DNA of 64,000 nt from Branchiostoma floridae. Its lineage: Eukaryota; Chordata; Leptocardii; Amphioxiformes; Branchiostomatidae. Location of the stretch: NCBI RefSeq assembly GCF_000003815.2, contig NC_049986.1, positions 11,513,354 through 11,577,353 on the forward strand. Direction: 5' to 3'. The notes under the pieces are model-generated. The model searched no databases. It was not told the origin of the DNA and worked only from the letters and a program-made list of their open reading frames with translations. Below are positions 5,690 through 20,600 of the stretch, one piece after another. Each line of letters starts with the position of its first letter. Within the stretch, counting starts at the first letter, position 1. A program made the translations under genes and the position numbers.

Positions 5690-8600
5690 CTGGGGGTGAG
5701 ATTCCCATAGATGTTATTTTCCAGCATTTATTACAACTATATCTTATCTTTCAAAAAATGTTGTTTTAAATTTGTATTGTCTATCTTCATTTCATTCCAG
5801 TGTTCTCGCCAGGCCTTTTCAGCATAGCGGGCCGATACGCTGTGGGCTGGAAAAATGACGCTGTAAAACGCCCGCTACGCTGCTTTTTCATCCAGCGTAG
5901 CGGCAAAAAAATGGGGAATAAAAGAAAAATATCGTAGTAAAAATACATAGGCACGCGCCAAGCACGCGCCTTCGCTGTTTCAGGAAGTTATCAACTCGAA
6001 GGGAGGTGTTTTACAGCACCGGCCCGCCGTACCGCTGTCTCGCAGCCGGCAGCCCCTCCCACCCCTTGCGTTCCCGCGCGCGGAAATGTAAACACAGACG
6101 CGAGAGGGCCTTGCCCGCACGTGATTAGCGGGGTGGGATCTCTCCCCGGAACAGCCGATGTGCATAAGGGAGCGGCGTTGATAAACAGAGGCTGTTACTC
6201 GCGGCAGTTGCGTCTTTCTTTTTCAGTACGGAAAATAGAAGCAATTATTTCTGACACATTTCTAGAGCAAGAACGGGTCGCGTTCCAAAATTTCCTGTTC
6301 TAAATTTTGCGTGTGCCGCCCTGCGTTCGTGCTAAAAAAAATAAAATGAGTAGCGCGTGTGCTGCGAGTGATCAGTGGGGTGGGCGGAACAGCCAGTTCC
6401 TGGGGAATGTCCTTATTTGGGGAGCTCGGTTGACCAACATAGGCTGTTACTGATAGTTGCGTAATTTTTATTTCAGCGCGGGAAATAGAATCAATTCTTT
6501 CCGACATAATTCTGGAGCAAGAGTGGGTCGCTTTTCCAAAATTCCTGTTCTAAATTTGAAGCTCTGTATCGGCATTCGTAAGATACAAACCATCGTAAGT
6601 TTGTATGTAAAACCCGGGCGTTAGTTTCGCCGACAAGCCCCGTGTGGCCCCGCCCACAAACCGCCAGGGCAGTTTCGGCATCTTTCCGATTTGATCAGAG
6701 GGCCGCCGGCTATCAATCAAACGCGGCTGTTGTTTACAGTTTCAGTCATGTGCCGTGTACAAGTTTACAGCGCGCGAACTTCATGCTACGTAATATTACA
6801 TTCCTTGGACCTTCTTTCCCACAGCGGTGCTTCTACGAAATATTTATTAGACTGTAACACTGAGTCCCACATGTTTTAAAGAAAGGAATCTGACGCGGAA
6901 TAGCGGTTTTTACCGGGTATTTTCTTGAAACATGTCCGTGGGATATATCGTCTAAACTCTAACGGCGAGGCGGCGACGCAGGGAGACCGTCAACAACAGT
7001 CGTACGGCACGGCGGCTAACAGCGATACTAGCGCTATAAACAAGCGCTTCAACTTCGGATGGCAACCAGGACAATATTTTTAAGTACTGTTGAGCTGAGT
7101 AAAGTTTGTTGTTTATGAGTTTTTAGTTGTCTGTGAAGCTTTGACCCGAAATATTGTTACGTCAAACTGCTGAAGAGAAGTTAAGTGACTGCTGCGATTA
7201 TCGTAGATATGGCCCTAAAAAAATGATAGAATAAGCCTTCTCAATAGCCTAAAATGCAAGAGCTTCCGGGGGGCTTCGCCCCCCTGGGTCTCCCCACCGG
7301 GGCTCTGCCCCTGGACCCCGCCGGGGGCCTTCGGCGGCCCCCGGACGCCTGCCCGACGCTGTGAAAAATTCCTGGCGAGAACACTGCATTCATTACCTTT
7401 TAGCCCAACTGGGCTAATCTTAATGCTATATAGCTTCATGTAGAAACAAACATATTCTGCTGATTTGAAAAAAAAGACCAAAAAATGTATTGATAATGCA
7501 TAATACTCTCATAGAAGTGTATAATATGCTGTACTGTAAGTAATCAGTTCTATAAAAATCACAGTATTAACCTTAATATTGTGAGAAAAGGTACCATACC
7601 TGGATTGGCTGGAGGCATAGAGTTCCTGTTCTGGGGATTCTTGTATTCCTTATAAGGAGTAGCCAGGGTGATGTCTAATCCAGGGAAGCTGCTGCCTAGT
7701 GAGTTCTTCTGGTAATATTCCACAAGCTCCTACAATAGCATGAGGATTTTGTTTAGCAAGATGCCCATGTTGCCATAGGAAGACAAAAATACCATACACA
7801 TTCTATACACTTATCAAACCATTTATTTTTTCTTTAGGTTGTACAGCAGCATTTTATTATCATTATCATTATTATTATCATTATTATGGTATTATAGCAG
7901 GTCTGTCTCCAGGACCCATCCCTCCGTCCCAGGACAGAAATTTGCTTGTTGGGACAGAAAAAAATATTGCCCCATCCGTCCCAAAAATCTGACCTTCATG
8001 ACATGAAACTGCTGAAAAGCTATTTTCATGAGCTCATGACACGTAAGGTTCTCGCCTTGTGTCTTTTCATATTTTACACTCACGCAAGTTTTAACAAGAA
8101 AAATCAACAAAATGGGTTCATTAACAATCAGTGGGATGGAAAAAAAATAATGCTGGTGACAACACACATTCTACATATTTATCAAACCATTTCTTGATAG
8201 GTTGTACAAAAAAGGGACCATGAGCTGTTTTGACGACAGAAGAAACTTAACAACCAACTTCATGCTGTTTTTAAATCAAAAACAACCATGAAACTGACAA
8301 AAAGATGGACGTACCACAATGTTGGGAAACATCTTGGCTTCTGCAATGAAGACACAGCCGTTGTGCTCGTTGACTTTGATATGCTTGACCATTTTGTGCC
8401 TGTCATACAGAATGTAAACAGTTACAAACGACTCAGCAATTCATATACCCCAGATATGCAAAAAGTACACACAATGTAATACTAGCACGACATGTAATAC
8501 ATTTTGGCAACTTAATTGCTGACAAACAGTAGTAAAAAAGTCAAGGTATTGACATGCAAATCCATGTTATAAGTTGCAAGAAAACTGCTTCTGTATCTAC

Positions 8601-11600
8601 AGCTTTGCACAAGAATCATCCTTACTTGAGACTGATAGCCCACTGTCCAGGCTTTCGAGCACTTTCCCTGACCAGATACACCCCCATAGACAGACTATCC
8701 AACATCTTCTCTGCCTCTGCACGTTCCATCTGTCCTGTGTACCTTTACAGTAAAACATTTCATGTTAGTGTACTGCATATCAAGCAATTTCAGTTGAGCA
8801 ATTGTTTTTATTATATCTTTATCAGCTATTTTTGTTATACCCGTACTTTGACAAACAAGTGATTAATCAGTAGAAAAAATTAGATTTCTATCCACTGATG
8901 CCTTCACACATTCAAATGTCTCTAATTAAAAAAATAGGTCCTCCAAACAAACAAAAACAAGACAGTAATGGTAGACCAAGCAGTAGTATCTCAACAAGAA
9001 CACCCTTAATTTCCTCAAATAAGCCGAGCATTACAATTTTATATTACACCAATCCAGGTACTGAATGAACAATTTTATATTACACCAATTAAGGTACTGA
9101 GTGAACAATTTCATATTACACCAATCAAGGTACTGAGTGAACAACTTTATATTACACCAATTAAGGTACTGAGTGAAATGCGCAGCAATCTGTCAGAGCA
9201 ACAAAAAATGTTCAGCCACAATGAAACCCAATTACAGACAAGCATGGATCACAGTGCTATGTAAACATTGAACAGATGAAATGGATGCAAACATTGAACA
9301 GATGAAATTGCACTGTTTCTATTCATACCTCTGCAGAATAAAACACATTTCATACAGTACCTTCTATGAGTTATGCATTGCCTTATTATCACCAGAGTGG
9401 AAGTATATAACATGCAAGGAATATGTGCCTTCACCAAGCTTCTGCTGTTGCACCCATGTCTATGATTGCACCCCTGATCTGTTAATGTTGTACTGGCAGG
9501 AGATTTCCGTGATCAATTAGTGGTAGCAAGGAGGTTGAAAAAAGGCAGCTACTAGCCGTGCAAAGCCAGTACACCAAAGCCCATATCACCAGGTACTGTA
9601 AGACTTTGTGGCTTTACCAGGTGTATTTGTTTAAATCTGCAACTGTAACTCGTTGCACATGTGGTGCGGACTTCCTACGTTCATTCTGCTCCCCCAGGAA
9701 CGCATCTTCGTAGCCTATGGATTGCCGTTTTGACGTTAACCCAGTTGACGATCGTCTTACTTGCCTTGGTTGCTAAAACAGAAAACAAGCACACACAAAA
9801 CAAAACATGTTTGGCTGCCTTTACCATGAAAAGGACTGAAGTGATCTGTTTGGAGCGGCAGGGGACCCATTAGTGGCTAGCGACCGAGGTCGCCAGTTGG
9901 TGTTTCTGCTCTCTGGTTCCTCGTAACTTGGCTTGTGGCTTCTAGATATTCTCTGTCAACAAACAGTTTACATTGTTCATACAATCAGTTTTTTCAGTGT
10001 TACAATGAACAAATTACAATTTACATAACACAAAGCAACAACACACCAAAAGAACACACCACACATCAATTGTTTCACAACCTGTCATAAATAGTCATAC
10101 TTATACTCAACAACTCACCAGGTCTTGAATGTCCTTGGAAATTGAGAGAAAAGTTTAACATAAATAGATGTATAGGAATAACGAATTACTCAAGGTTAGC
10201 ATAAAAACTAAGACATACAGAGAGGACAGCAGACAGTACCAATATTCAAAAATCATTAAACCATTTCTTATCCAAAACACAAATAACTGCATGCCAAAAA
10301 TTAGGATTCAGACAGCAATATAAATGCTTCAAAGTTGTAATGATACATATGAAAACTAAAATAATGTATTTTCTTTTTAATTCAGTCATGCTATCAGATC
10401 TTTATTACCTTCAACAAAATAAATACACCAAAACAAAGAGTATTAGAGCCTGAGAGGCGAAACTGACAGGGGAGGAGTTGATAGTTTAGTGAAGAAGAGA
10501 CTATCATATCTCTATGTTACCATGTGATGTAATATGATATGGTAACATATGTAATATGAAGTTGTGTAGCATGGACATAACACATTCAGAAACTTGATGT
10601 GGACGAGGTGGAGGAAAATTCTTTTTCAGAGAGTCAAGGATGAATTTTGGTTGTTGTTGTGACATGACAAGCTGTTGTTGCCATGAGGCAATATTGTAAA
10701 GGGATAAAGACGAGCTGGATGCAGGAGTAAAGAAGATCCTTACATGTTCTGACACACAGTCCTTTGGGAACCAGCCTCTTTCCAAGTCCCTCAGTCTTCT
10801 CCCCTATGGGTTGATAATTACATTTGTGAGCAAGTTAGACTTATCAAGTCTGCAAGACAAATATCATTTTCCTTCCTGTTGTTCAAGACTAAAAAAGGAA
10901 GCAACAATGCCAAAAGTCTTACACCCAATCTCAGTGATTTTTTTTTTCATTTCTGTTTAGTGCAGCCCTTCCCCATCCCTTCAAAATGAGTTGTCTAAAC
11001 AATATCACTGCTTATACATGTACCTGCTAATGCTTAAAATGATTTGTATAGAGTCATAAACATCACCATTCAAGTTTTCCTCAGATGACTATTGGCATGA
11101 GTAATGAAACAATATACATACCTCCCACCACTCGCGGTCTGTAGTGTTGGTGGTTTCTATCCTCTCCCCATCGTTAAACGTCAGAGGCTTCCTGTCCCCG
11201 ATGGGGGGAGGGGGGATCCCATGGTACGCCCTGTCTGCCTGGACTATCATGTCTACATAACAACAGGATACAGATGTCAGCAAGGACTACATCTAGCAAT
11301 GTTGTAATTTGAACTTAAAGATATGTTACAAGTTGTAAGATCAACCAACTCATCATAATTCCACCCGATGCCCTAATACCGCCACATGCACGCTTCCAGA
11401 AAGTATTACAGTCCTTAGGACAGGACGTTAAGCTGTGGTCCACCGTTCATTGTGCTAGTCGAAAAGAGTTAGGGGAATTTTCCTGGTATAATGAACCTGT
11501 AAATACTGTACAGAGCATCTGTCCTCTCTGTCACTAACAGTAGAAGACTAGCTATTCTGTGAGATAAAACTGGATCTAGATCGCCTTCCTTATTTTAACT

Positions 11601-14600: not shown

Positions 14601-17600
14601 CTGGTGGCAGGCAAATAGAAATTCTAAAAGGGTAGAAAGAAATGAAGAAAGAAGAACTGCAGAAAGAGAGAGGAGACAGCAAAAGTGAGCACCTGACAGT
14701 TGGGAATGATATATTCCGACATCCTACTGGATCTCTGCAGCACATTCAAAGGTGGCAGCAATGATTAAACAATCAACGAGAACACTGCTAGAAAACTACA
14801 CACATTTGGTAAGGGCACACACACAGAGCATAGAAAATAACTTGCTGAATAATACAGAGAATATTTCAGAATGACAGATGACAGCAGTATTAGCAAGAAA
14901 TAAATGACTACACCAAGGAGTAAATACATGATAACTGACCCTAAGTGGCTTGCACAATACCATGGCTTTGTCAAACAGGAAACAGTATCTGGGGACAGAA
15001 ATGGCATCATGATACCACTGTTAAAGATACCACTGTTATTTTAAGGTCTTGTATATATTTTTCAATATGTTGTTTCTCCATTGACAGCTATAGCCAGACT
15101 GGCAAAAATTACTAACAGAAATTAAATTATATTCACTTGATTATGAAGTGTAGTTTGGTTGCTGTTTCACAATATTACCAAAATATGAGTCTTGACTTCT
15201 CTTTAAATGAATGTAACTTTGTTTCTCAATACAATTCTCCATCCTGTAATTACCAACAATGAGATAAATCTTCCTTTAACATGTCCTGACCTATTCTGAA
15301 CATTGTTATCTCTCTGGTTCTTGAATCTCAGTTCTCCGTCTCGCAGTAGTCTTCCATAATCTGACAGGTCTTTCCCCTCGGGATAGTCTGTGATACTGGA
15401 GAGAATGACCAACAGGTAGTGGTATGTTTACTCAAACTACAGTATTTCTATCATTAGCAGAAGCTCAAAGTAAATATATGTATCTGACTGTCTTTTACAT
15501 ATTTACTCTTGATATTCCTTTGAACAGTTAAGAATTTTCCAAATTTCGTGTTCACAATAAAACAGCTAATAGATCTGACTCTTGTTACTTATCAGGTAGC
15601 CAGTGACTTTACTGAATAGAAAGTATGTACAATTAAACATTGAACTACATGTTTCTGACCAAACAAAACATATTGTGGAGACAGCAAACAATGTCCTACG
15701 TGAGATAAAAACACCATATATCTGCTTCTGGCAGCCAATATACAATGTCAACCTATGAAACACAGAACATTTTACCAGAAAACTAACCAAACTAAGATTC
15801 TGTACAAGGAACCAATTTTTCTTTTCTCACCTCTCTTGAACCTTCCTGATGGTCTCTACTGTCTCATTATCTCTCTTTACTTCATTCACATACTGTGCTA
15901 AATCCTGCAGGAGAGACATGAACATGTTAGTACGGCCAAAACTGTTAGCTTTTGTTACCTAATGTTCTTTACCCTTATTTCAGCACCAAGGACAGAAAAG
16001 ACCAGGATTTTTAAGATTTATTTTTTCATAGAAGTGCTGGCCCACTTGTGATATGAAATACAAGTACCTTATTATGGTTATTTCTAATGGCACTTGATTG
16101 TTTATGATTAGTTTTGCATGTACAAGAGTTTGGTGACTATGGACAGTAAGGTGTTCTTTCATGTGTTACCTGCATAGCTGCTAGTGCTTGTTCCAGTCCT
16201 TCCTTCTCTTCCTTGGGGGCCATTGGGGTTTTCTGAATGTGCTTGATAAGTTCCTATAGAGAAAGAAATCACTTAAGCAAGCATTGACCACATTGGGTAA
16301 CTTTTGAAACAAAAAACTAGCTAGAATGATATTTAGTCACAGTATCATCATTCAACTCTGTGACAAGGGGGTGTACAAACTTAGCCATGTATGGGACTGT
16401 GTTCTCACCACAAAAGTGCCTACTACATCGGCTACATATATAGCAGCAAGAAGCAGAACTCCCATTAGAAGCTGAGGCAGATGTCTAACAGGAATCAAAA
16501 CATCAGCAGGTAAGATCAACTGGTTGTGTAAAAGAAAACTCTGCTATTCTATGACCAACCAACCTGATGAAAGTATTTTTGGAATTCATTCAACTCTGTA
16601 GTCATGTCAAACTTCAGGGTAACAAAACACTATGGGTGAATCTAGTGAAGTTTGCTATCTCTGATTGTCAGTTGAAATGAGAAGGACTTACCCTGAGCAG
16701 AAGATGGTACTTGAGAACCCTCTGCATAGGCACACTCAGCAGGTCTCTCAGGCGGAACTTCCCCTGGTTACACGCCATCTGACATGTCTGGGTGGGAGAC
16801 AGGGGGCATGTAATCACAACTCATCCTGTCAAGCTTTAAATTATCTTTTTTACCACTCCAAAACTGCAAAACATGCATTCTATGATTTCCACTACTAGCC
16901 TGAGTACCATTCTCCGTGGTGACTTCTGGCTCAATACTTTTGCTTGCTAACTCCGTTGTAAGCAAGCAAAAGTATTGATCCAGCGGTCACTATGGAGGAT
17001 GGTACTCAGGCTATTCCACTACATCCTGTACATATCATTTTGGAAACTTATAGCCTGATAATCCTAGAAACTAGCTAGTAAAAGTAACAAACCTTGATAT
17101 GAGACCAACAACAAACGGAAAATAGGTGATATAACTATCTTTAAAACTTACATTAACTACTAACGTAAGGTTACCAGTTTACGTGCAGGACCAGTTTACG
17201 GTCACTTATTGGTTGATGCAGACTTCGAGGTCAATTGTAAAAAAGAAAATTCTCTTGAGTAGGAAAGAAGTACGTTTATATCATCTATGTGTCTTGCCTT
17301 ATTTATCCTATAACTTTGCATCCAGCAAATCACGTCTGAAAAATCCGACAACAATTTACATTTACGCTTGAGTGCGCACAACACTATTACAGATGACCCG
17401 GTTCTGATCGTAATTCTAGACGGCTATTTTCGTCCCCTCTTTAAAATCCAACAAACTCTTTATGAATTGAAACATCACCTCAAACCGAACCTGGAGTTCT
17501 TATCTCAAGAATGCATGGTGATTTTATGTATGTTGTCCAAGGAAACTCTTATAAACTGCATAAAAACAAGTGACTGTCCTCGCCGAGCGGGCACATAGTA

Positions 17601-20600
17601 GTTTTCGAACGCCATGTTGCATCACGTGACTTGCCCGTTATTTAAAGCTTGCTGCACTGGAGAGCGAGAAATTGTCGCAAGGGGCGCTGTTGGGGCTAAT
17701 TTATGTGGGGAGGGCACGGCGTGAGGAAGCCACATGTATACTGAACGCGTTTTAAGGCCAGTTCCTATCTATACAGGTGATAACAACATCCAAATGCGTT
17801 GCCATTATTATGAGTAGCATTGTGCAAGTTGTCGAACAGCATGGCGCTCTGAGTGGCGTTCTGCTGGGGCAAAGATGACTTACCGATAACGTTTAGCGGC
17901 GATGCAAAGTGGCGGCATGGCCATATGTATACAATTTATCCATTGTGTTATCTCAGTGAACTACGTGGGGGACTTTTAAGGGAAATGATCAGATATATGT
18001 CCTTTAGAAAAATAACCTCATGGAGAAACACCCAACTGACCGTAAATTGGTCACCCTGGAAGAATTCTTGGCTGCAGACTTGTTTATTAAAGACGCTAGT
18101 ACGGCGAGAAATCCTCAGAAGAAATATGATGCCACACAGAGCTTGACGCAGACCGACTTTGATGTCTTCCAATTAAGGACAGCTTTTCACTTCCCGACCT
18201 GCGCGCTTTCCATAAAACGGCATTATTAACAAATCGACCGTAAACTGGTAACCTTACGTTACCTTTCCACACTTGTATGTATGAAAATTATTTAAGAAAC
18301 AGTTACTGTAGTATTGATGTGATAGATTGCACATGGAGTGATATCTAAAAGATCAAGCCTTGTAGCAGGCTATTTTTTATAGAAACATCAGTTCTTACAT
18401 TTACTTGTCCTGTACAGACCTTTTGGTATGCATAAAGGTACACATAAATGCTTGGTGAAAGACTAATAAAACACACATTTATAACTAATATGTGCCACAG
18501 TGACTGACAATTAATGTAGCTACCAGTATAGTTTAGACACAAGATAGCACAGTACAGCAGAATACATCACATCACAATGGCAAAATACATGTACAACAAT
18601 GCAACACAACACACAATACAACACACAAACTAAACATACTGCACCACCTGAAGGTCCTTTTAACTGCACAAAACTTGAAACATCATCTCAACATTTTTTA
18701 GAAATAGCTGCACAGATTTGCAGGTTCATTTTCTGTTTGAATTTATGAAAAAAAAATTTATGCCATATGTTTTCATGTGAGATTGTTTGTAGGTCTACAA
18801 TAAATAATTTGATTTTTTGTTTTGTTATTCCACAAGAATTGATACAAATTTGTCATTCTACAGTGAAGGTTCTTTGTGAAGCCTCTGTACTTGTGGCCAG
18901 CACAAAAATATGAAGTACTGAAAGCACTACAGAAAAGACTGCCCGCAAAAACTTGAAGTCCCAAAAATGGCTGTGGTAAGAAATAAACCACTTGTAGTCC
19001 TGGACACAGTTAAAAGGACAGATTGGGACTCCACAGATGAGAGCTACCTCCAGTTGTACCTGCCCAAGTCCGCGCAGCTGGGACTGGCCGCATGCCGGAG
19101 AGAACAGAGCAAGATAGCAATGTAGAACACTTCAACAACACACTTGCCATAGTTAGTCACGAGAGGGTTAGACCAAGGTACATGTACCAGAAAAATCAGT
19201 TAGTAAGCATTTCAAGTCAACGTTTTCCCTTCTGCAGGCTCATTTTTACATCACTTTCGGTGGAGTTGCAGCAAGTTACAGTATACTGAACAGTATAAAG
19301 GAGGAGATTTTTTTGTAGACAGAATTTCACAGCACTAATCTGAATTCATGTCTTTTAAACACCTTTTAGGACACACACTAACTTGTGACTAAGTATCCCC
19401 AGTAAACTTAACAAACAGAAGGTAATCAATACTGAGGTACATACTTCCAAATATATGTTGTCTTTTTTTTCAAAATCAGGTCTTACTTTCTACAATGTAC
19501 ATCATCTGGCTTTCCAAATTGAAAACGATTTAGATACAGGTAGGCCAAACACAGTATCGGCAAGTGTGTTGCCATTATTGACTTATTGAGGAGAAACAAC
19601 GTCAGAAGAACAAGCATGGCTGTAAGCATTCAAAAGCAAAGAGCAGGTCAGTGAGAAAATTGAATGATCCAGCTTATCAATTCTGAAATATACATCAAAG
19701 TTATCTCAAAGGCAAGTATCTGACAGTAGAGAAAGAAAGATAGGGGATAATATGAACAACAATTCCCTTGTACTTTCAAGATACACAACAGTCATTAGAT
19801 GTGGGGTTAAATACACAATCATTTAGACATTCATCTATACAGAAAAAGAAGACTGCACACTGCACATTCATTTAGAATTCGTTAACATGAACATTCTTGT
19901 GGAAATTGAATACAAACATGTAGTACAACAGCAGCTACAATGATTTTCTTGCGACATGCGAAAGACAAGATGGCAATTAGTACTAGTAGGTAAACTCCAA
20001 GCAGATCCTACAGTGCCATAAGATAGTATCAAAGCTGGCCAAGGAGTATAGCTAGCCAAAGGGAGTCAAACGGGCACCTACGGTGGGTTTGATACTACGC
20101 CACTGTGGATCTGCTTGGAGATTACTAGTAAGTACTGGTAATAAACTTCCCTAAAGGCACTGAAAATTTGATAACTTTGACAACAGAACAAAGAACACTG
20201 TACGACAAAACATTCATATTAGAGAGTCAAAGTTTACCTCGATTTTGGTCCTGACTTCAGGCTTCCTCTGACACAGACTGTCCACATGGTCCTGCCCATA
20301 CTGCATGTCGGAGCAGTACTGCCCGTAAATCAACATCCTGTCCTTCCAGTCCAGGAAACACTTGCTGATGTTGTTTGTGTGCTGGTGCCGCGAAGCCTTC
20401 TCCAGGTCTTGGAGAAAACCCTTGTGGACATTGAACAGGTCCTGGGGAAAAGATGTTATAACATTCAGGTTTAGCAGAAAAAGGTGATGCTTCATGTAAA
20501 GAACACTGTTTCATCTTCGAACACTCTTTAATGGCTCACATTCATTTTTTTCCTTGAAAGAAAAGCAGTTTGAACAGAGAGGATTTTCCGTCTTAGGACA

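Follow-up and report, generated by a model that had tools for sequence, protein, structure and literature searches.

The 64,000-nucleotide stretch of Branchiostoma floridae DNA analyzed here (the window; positions 11,513,354 to 11,577,353 of contig NC_049986.1) carries on its minus strand a single VAV gene in which two adjacent coding exons, both lying between the N-terminal SH3 domain and the SH2 domain, are probably used as a mutually exclusive pair. The exon that comes first in transcription, exon A (9952-9825), has 128 nucleotides, begins in phase 0, ends in phase 2, and encodes 42 residues followed by TG. Exon B (9772-9618), 155 nucleotides long and also phase 0 to 2, encodes 51 residues followed by TG. 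Only 52 nucleotides of intron (9824-9773) separate them. Drawn from genomic anatomy alone, the case for exclusive use combines a reading frame that tolerates one of the two exons at a time with a predicted branch point that would lie on top of the upstream 5' splice site. If this is correct, the pair extends sterically enforced exclusive splicing to a family for which the literature searched yielded no reported case.

Reading frames across the two linker exons

The gene is a VAV guanine nucleotide exchange factor with the domain order DH-PH-C1-SH3-SH2-SH3. Its exons from DH1 to the stop codon, including a proline-rich segment after C1, span 21399 to 5086 and were modeled as 22 common exons plus either A or B, which leaves both isoforms open over 748 residues with A and 757 with B. 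Pfam recognizes RhoGEF, PH, C1, SH2, and two stretches of SH3 in the modeled part, and the best PDB matches of the modeled protein are VAV1 and VAV2 chains, and the VAV assignment made in the initial, sequence-only reading of this DNA is borne out.

Exons A and B are each preceded by AG, begin in phase 0, and end in TG before GTAAAG. Their upstream partner is a microexon of 15 nucleotides that encodes DIQDL (10133-10119, phase 0 to 0), and their downstream partner is the first SH2 exon (8742-8626, G followed by YTGQMER...), whose acceptor is common to both. The reading frame is open when the microexon and the SH2 exon are joined through A, and equally when they are joined through B, with the TG+G junction restoring the Trp at the start of SH2 in either case. 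Other combinations fail: A joined to B reads CNQGK and then a stop, skipping of both exons gives 15 codons and then a stop, and retention of the 52-nucleotide intron reads TGG TAA. Only one exon at a time, then, yields an open protein, with a single exception. The first 8 nucleotides of B (9772-9765) end in an alternative acceptor AG (ccaag), and a junction of A with 9764 preserves the frame. The sequence-only reading was correct in its coordinates, phases, and frames, as it was in stating that using both exons gives a stop after five codons, that using neither gives a stop within 16, and that the acceptor eight bases into B is in frame after A. For the protein, the consequence would be that 42 or 51 exon-encoded residues, followed by the shared Trp, link the N-terminal SH3 to SH2 in a segment that is presumably disordered.

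Branch-point geometry and intron signals

Mutual exclusion had been proposed in part on the grounds that an intron of 52 bases would hinder the splicing of both exons. Length does not settle the matter, since splicing has been reported for human introns of 43, 49, and 56 nucleotides (PMC4463651), and the mechanism shifts from the length of the intron to the position of its branch point. Apart from the one in the 3' AG, the only adenines of this intron are at +3, 4, 5, 9, 13, 14, 15, and 17. Because there is no adenine between +17 and the 3' AG, an adenine branch point for B lies at most 17 nucleotides from the 5' splice site of A, or inside A itself. The adenine-free run before B, rich in U and UGU, extends over 33 nucleotides, compared with 0 to 18 before each of the 23 remaining modeled acceptors. 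The branch-site zone of B predicted from sequence motifs (9827-9808) overlaps the 5' splice site of A; its best match to YNYURAY is TTTTCAT, with the A at −3 and 1 mismatch, and the intronic matches GCCAAAC (A at +15) and TGGTAAA (A at +4) have 2 mismatches each. The branch nucleotide itself is a prediction and could be something other than adenine. Steric hindrance has been proposed to set in when the branch point is less than about 50 nucleotides from the 5' splice site (PMC7969005), the branch points of human OGDH exons 4a and 4b are described at 25 to 41 nucleotides from the 5' splice site (PMC7969005), and 57 human clusters (9%) are listed with proximity of this kind (PMC5740500). Any adenine branch point for B falls well within that limit.

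Under this geometry, a U2 small nuclear ribonucleoprotein (snRNP) assembling for B would compete with the U1 snRNP on the 5' splice site of A. Competition for one short stretch of RNA would block the joining of A to B, and the choice of B would at the same time disable A. A different way to arrive at the same two proteins would be to use both exons freely, with the A-B product being made and then destroyed by nonsense-mediated decay and not prevented sterically. The premature stops that follow both from A-B joining and from skipping are what such a scheme needs, but the geometry, which leaves no adenine branch point more than 17 nucleotides from the 5' splice site, speaks against it, and we regard this scheme as quite improbable. 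It partly overlaps with steric exclusion, as does the RNA-pairing explanation discussed below, so the likelihoods given to these readings need not sum to one.

The intron upstream of A (10118-9953, 166 nucleotides) is unusual in its own right, with many branch-like motifs, 19 copies of UGU, and an AG exclusion zone of 127 nucleotides. The corresponding zone of B measures 40 nucleotides, and those of 21 other modeled introns range from 14 to 71. Across the other VAV introns, 10,712 positions were checked and not one is preceded by an AG-free stretch as long as that of A; when the intron before A is dinucleotide-shuffled, 127 nucleotides are reached in 2 of 2,000 cases. In human genes, alternative splicing has been reported to be more frequent among exons whose AG exclusion zone is 100 nucleotides or longer (PMC1431707). 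The introns before A and B also contain 114.5 and 134.6 UGU per kb, against 16.8 to 57.5 in 21 others, which is a soft signal. The proposal of mutual exclusion is thus sustained by frame exclusivity, branch geometry, the 127-nucleotide zone, and the UGU-rich introns, and it loses intron length as its reason.

Proteins that bind the UGU- and U-rich tracts before each exon would probably set the choice between them; in OGDH, exon choice is described as being tipped by TIA-1/TIAR and PUF60 (PMC7969005). The long AG exclusion zone of A, together with its pyrimidine-poor acceptor tract (pyrimidine fraction 0.48, versus 0.71 over a longer tract for B), suggests that A would be the regulated exon and B the default.

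Weighing exclusive use against other readings

To place the pair against chance, splice-site matrices were trained on the same gene (21 acceptors and 20 donors, with A, B, and the microexon left out), and their small size makes all chance estimates order-of-magnitude figures. AG-GT pairs 60 to 300 nucleotides apart were scanned on both strands, with the minus-strand VAV exons and the region 10743-8743 masked. Exon A scores 6.2 (acceptor) and 7.3 (donor), inside the range of other VAV exons. At these thresholds, 77 AG-GT pairs occur elsewhere in the window (46 on the minus strand and 31 on the plus strand), of which a single one has an open phase 0-to-2 frame and none combines such a frame with a TG end. 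With laxer thresholds, 26 of 1,254 pairs are open from phase 0 to 2, and a single one ends in TG, within a VAV intron (13785-13715). The region 10743-8743 itself holds 3 candidates that are open from phase 0 to 2, and A and B are the two with a TG end. The remaining candidate, 9876-9761, was rejected as a third linker exon; it ends in AA, leaves the Trp unrestored, and spans the A-B junction. For other, symmetric phases, the remaining VAV introns contain 5 frame-keeping cassette candidates of 12 to 111 nucleotides with both scores at or above 5, so an open candidate alone is not rare, but the exact phase pair combined with TG is.

Several results weigh against an exclusive pair, or against the roles assigned to its members. 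The acceptor of B scores 0.3 against 6.2 for A, which speaks against B as the default exon; acceptors as low are found at SH2a (0.7), SH2c (0.3), and SH3b (−0.4) of the same gene. The in-frame acceptor at 9764 scores 3.1 with the same small matrix, above that of B. Codon usage in frame is −0.001 bits per codon for A and −0.149 for B, below the 0.09 to 0.73 of 16 VAV coding segments, on which the codon table was also trained. Overlapping stop-free intronic segments score as high in 8 of 168 cases for A and 19 of 168 for B, and in both exons another frame beats the coding frame; neither exon has clearly exon-like codon usage, and this measure was set aside as proof of coding. No overall similarity between A and B was detected, with 1,420 of 2,000 shuffles scoring at least as high. 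All of the mutually exclusive exons with analyzed structures in a survey of human genes are said to sit inside folded domains (PMC5740500). The intron signals also have their equals: 8 of 7,666 AGs on both strands of the whole window have an exclusion zone as long as that of A, and 24 of 2,048 windows of other VAV introns match the UGU count of the intron before A. Finally, RNA folding is no better than in shuffled sequence, with z 0.40 for 581 nucleotides around the pair and z −0.44 to 1.16 for three short pieces.

The folding result bears most directly on the idea that both exons are used and that competing RNA pairing between docking and selector sites picks one of them, as proposed for other clusters such as Dscam (PMC7969005). 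With folding indistinguishable from that of shuffles, and no match in an Rfam scan of 8600-10900, this mechanism appears extremely unlikely here.

The acceptor at 9764 raises the question of whether exclusion is strict, since A could be a cassette exon joined to this site, giving a long linker (SFSWQVRRSS...). That join keeps the frame, and its acceptor outscores the normal one of B. It would have to draw on the same branch zone, no more than 17 nucleotides from the 5' splice site of A; the adenines it adds are no more than 8 nucleotides away from its AG, which another AG precedes downstream of the branch zone, and splicing from the microexon to 9764 is out of phase (offset 8). We consider the cassette arrangement very unlikely. 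Sites for a longer A-B intron were poor, with the four other GT in A scoring at most 0.4 and 11 AG in B beyond 9764 all scoring below 0. As a separate observation, a good 5' splice site, CAA/GTAAGA, scoring 7.4, lies at 9761/9760, 12 nucleotides inside B, and its use would shift the frame into SH2.

A simpler possibility is that only one exon matters, with B constitutive and A rare or decaying, its frame and phases being in part a matter of luck, or the reverse. The weak codon usage of both exons, the lack of homology between them, and the presence of five fair-scoring, frame-keeping candidates in other VAV introns all lend this some weight. In the other direction, A has scores typical of VAV exons, and its GC content of 0.516 stands well above the 0.379 of the introns, where 51 of 862 windows reach the same value. 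It also combines 42 open codons with the right phases, a TG end, and an extreme AG exclusion zone upstream, a set of features that an exon in decay would probably not have retained in full. A single functional exon is thus unlikely, if by no means negligible, and exclusive use of A and B remains the probable reading.

Tandem exon duplication, from which such pairs usually arise, was considered as the origin of A and B and found no support in protein or DNA similarity. The last six residues of A and B are alike (192 of 20,000 shuffles do as well), in a stretch that was chosen after looking. Most mutually exclusive exons are described as homologous, the non-homologous ones amounting to 73 exons or about 5% of the human set (PMC5740500). 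The end of B aligns with the stretch that precedes SH2 in VAV1 and VAV2, and each of the seven VAV chains that both searches listed favors the tail of B over that of A, by 0.6 to 3.6 bits. This likeness, together with its pyrimidine-richer and longer acceptor tract, makes B probably the older and default exon and A an addition. The step is a weak one because the margin among VAV chains is small, the acceptor matrix gives the better score to A, and with p85 chains it is A that leads, by 7 bits (79.9 versus 72.5), the last a further point on the opposing side of the balance drawn above.

Linker signals, gene context, and known systems

The two linkers would confer different signals. YEEP in exon A is the sole Y[VEL]xP among the 30 tyrosines of modeled isoform A, and the modeled part of isoform B has none among 31. 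The motif SYEEP lies 33 residues before the SH2 Trp. On arrays, the VAV1 SH2 domain is reported to select [pY][V/E/L][X][P], with dissociation constants of 1.87 and 4.73 µM for two pYELP peptides (PMC3514216). SYEEP fits this motif, which suggests by analogy that it could be a ligand of the protein's own SH2 in a self-latch like that of CRK; the preference used is that of VAV1 and may differ from that of this SH2, and the constants are those of pYELP and not pYEEP. It would be just as simple to read SYEEP as a docking site for SH2 domains of other proteins. A scan for RxxS/T returned RRSS, RSST (overlapping), and RRKS in B and RPRS in A, so that linker B appears richer than A in predicted basophilic kinase sites. 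One string in linker B, RRKSAP, resembles a 14-3-3 site. Of the contrasting signals originally ascribed to the two linkers, the strings are present and SYEEP, through its fit to the VAV1 motif, is the most specific, but they are short, the basic-Ser sites are not private to B, and these motifs could be chance occurrences.

A more speculative proposal joins these elements. Splicing may decide whether the protein carries a ligand for its own SH2, such that isoform A, once phosphorylated at SYEEP, would latch its SH2 onto its own linker or pair head to tail with a second A molecule and be insulated from receptors, and isoform B, which lacks the latch, would answer to basophilic kinases, with the overlap of branch site and 5' splice site enforcing the choice through U1 and U2. 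As a whole we hold this to be unlikely. If true, splicing would here achieve something comparable to the division of functions among the three VAV genes of vertebrates.

Beyond the linker, the last exon of the N-terminal SH3 in the model is 10803-10744 (20 residues). Two minus-strand open frames stand outside the DH-to-stop exon model: 36446-36042, with the start of a CH domain (Pfam CH 1.4e-11, CAMSAP_CH 3.7e-15), and 27134-26934, with acidic tyrosine motifs whose likeness to the VAV acidic region was judged by inspection only. The microexon is not the only very short exon in this gene, as 12139-12120, of 20 nucleotides, adds prolines after C1. A search of the assembly (513,431,437 bases) with the linker-SH2 protein returned exons of this same VAV gene for the four lowest E-values, the next match having an E-value of 1.5e-6 and 38% identity. 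The A/B stretch has 1 match in its own genome, as does exon A alone, and a second copy of the A/B stretch, whether haplotype or paralogue, was looked for in the assembly and none was found. By these searches, VAV is single-copy in this assembly.

The introns of the gene hold other features. In the DH4-DH5 intron, a candidate cassette of 111 nucleotides (16519-16409, phase 0 to 0) has scores of 6.7 and 6.6; its peptide is very hydrophobic, and a cassette looks unlikely. A 36-nucleotide open phase 0-to-0 stretch with AG/GT borders in the DH3-DH4 intron (19083-19048, modest scores of 1.6 and 5.2) is a possible DH microexon. The same intron contains a transposon-like insert of 1.1 kb with perfect 23-nucleotide inverted repeats (17161-18261), near which lies a 118-nucleotide palindromic element (16896-17013) with 56-nucleotide arms at 88%, resembling the hairpin of a miniature inverted-repeat transposable element. 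A 1.6-kb insert in the SH2c-SH3c intron (5798-7386) looks like a DNA transposon, having 22-nucleotide inverted repeats (91% complementary) and internal direct repeats of 93 and 32 nucleotides. Part of the intron between B and the SH2 exon (9033-9176) consists of roughly four tandem copies of a 36-bp unit.

VAV is a textbook example of a Rho GTPase activator controlled by phosphotyrosine, and the reviews consulted assign this control to the acidic tyrosines and to the C-terminal SH3. Should the exon pair be real, a single-copy invertebrate VAV could exchange the stretch that links SH3 to SH2 through its choice of exon, and so gain or lose a predicted ligand of its own SH2, and the pair offers a simple, testable prediction on the limits of steric exclusion. 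The sequence-only reading knew of no such switch in vertebrate VAVs; on the side of the literature, the main text of a review of VAV evolution does not contain the terms 'splic', 'isoform', or 'linker' (PMC6562523), and among the matches listed, titles and the starts of abstracts on VAV splicing or amphioxus exclusive exons make no mention of exclusive VAV linker exons.

The closest mechanistic parallels are alpha-tropomyosin, alpha-actinin, and the 4a/4b pair of OGDH, as described in PMC7969005 and PMC1431707, which share with the VAV pair a U-rich tract between the exons and, as proposed here, the exclusion of joint splicing. Compared with the 25 to 41 nucleotides of human OGDH, the predicted branch distance here is at most 17 nucleotides, or negative if the branch point lies inside A. 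The VAV pair also differs from pairs of the OGDH type in that its intron is only 52 nucleotides long, its exons are non-homologous and encode a linker, and its branch point is a prediction. The non-homologous mutually exclusive exons of the human set (PMC5740500) resemble it in being adjacent, phase-compatible, dissimilar, and possibly located in surface or disordered regions; they come from annotation, whereas the VAV pair is known from genomic sequence alone.

Within the VAV family, this gene has the shared complement of CH, DH, PH, C1, proline-rich, SH3, SH2, and SH3 elements, and like the gene of other invertebrates it is single (PMC6562523). Invertebrates and urochordates are described as having a single Vav gene, and one choanoflagellate is the exception, and the length of the spacer between the N-terminal SH3 and SH2 is reported to vary among phyla (PMC6562523). 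Here the variation would instead occur within one gene, by exon choice. In CRK, the protein's SH2 is bound by its own phosphorylated Y221, a site that CRK I stops short of (PMC2689226). The likeness to CRK I/II is that an alternatively spliced segment adds or removes a phosphotyrosine (pYxxP) site for the protein's own SH2. Self-binding in CRK is experimental and the segment is dropped, whereas in VAV self-binding is suggested by a motif and the exon would be swapped for another.
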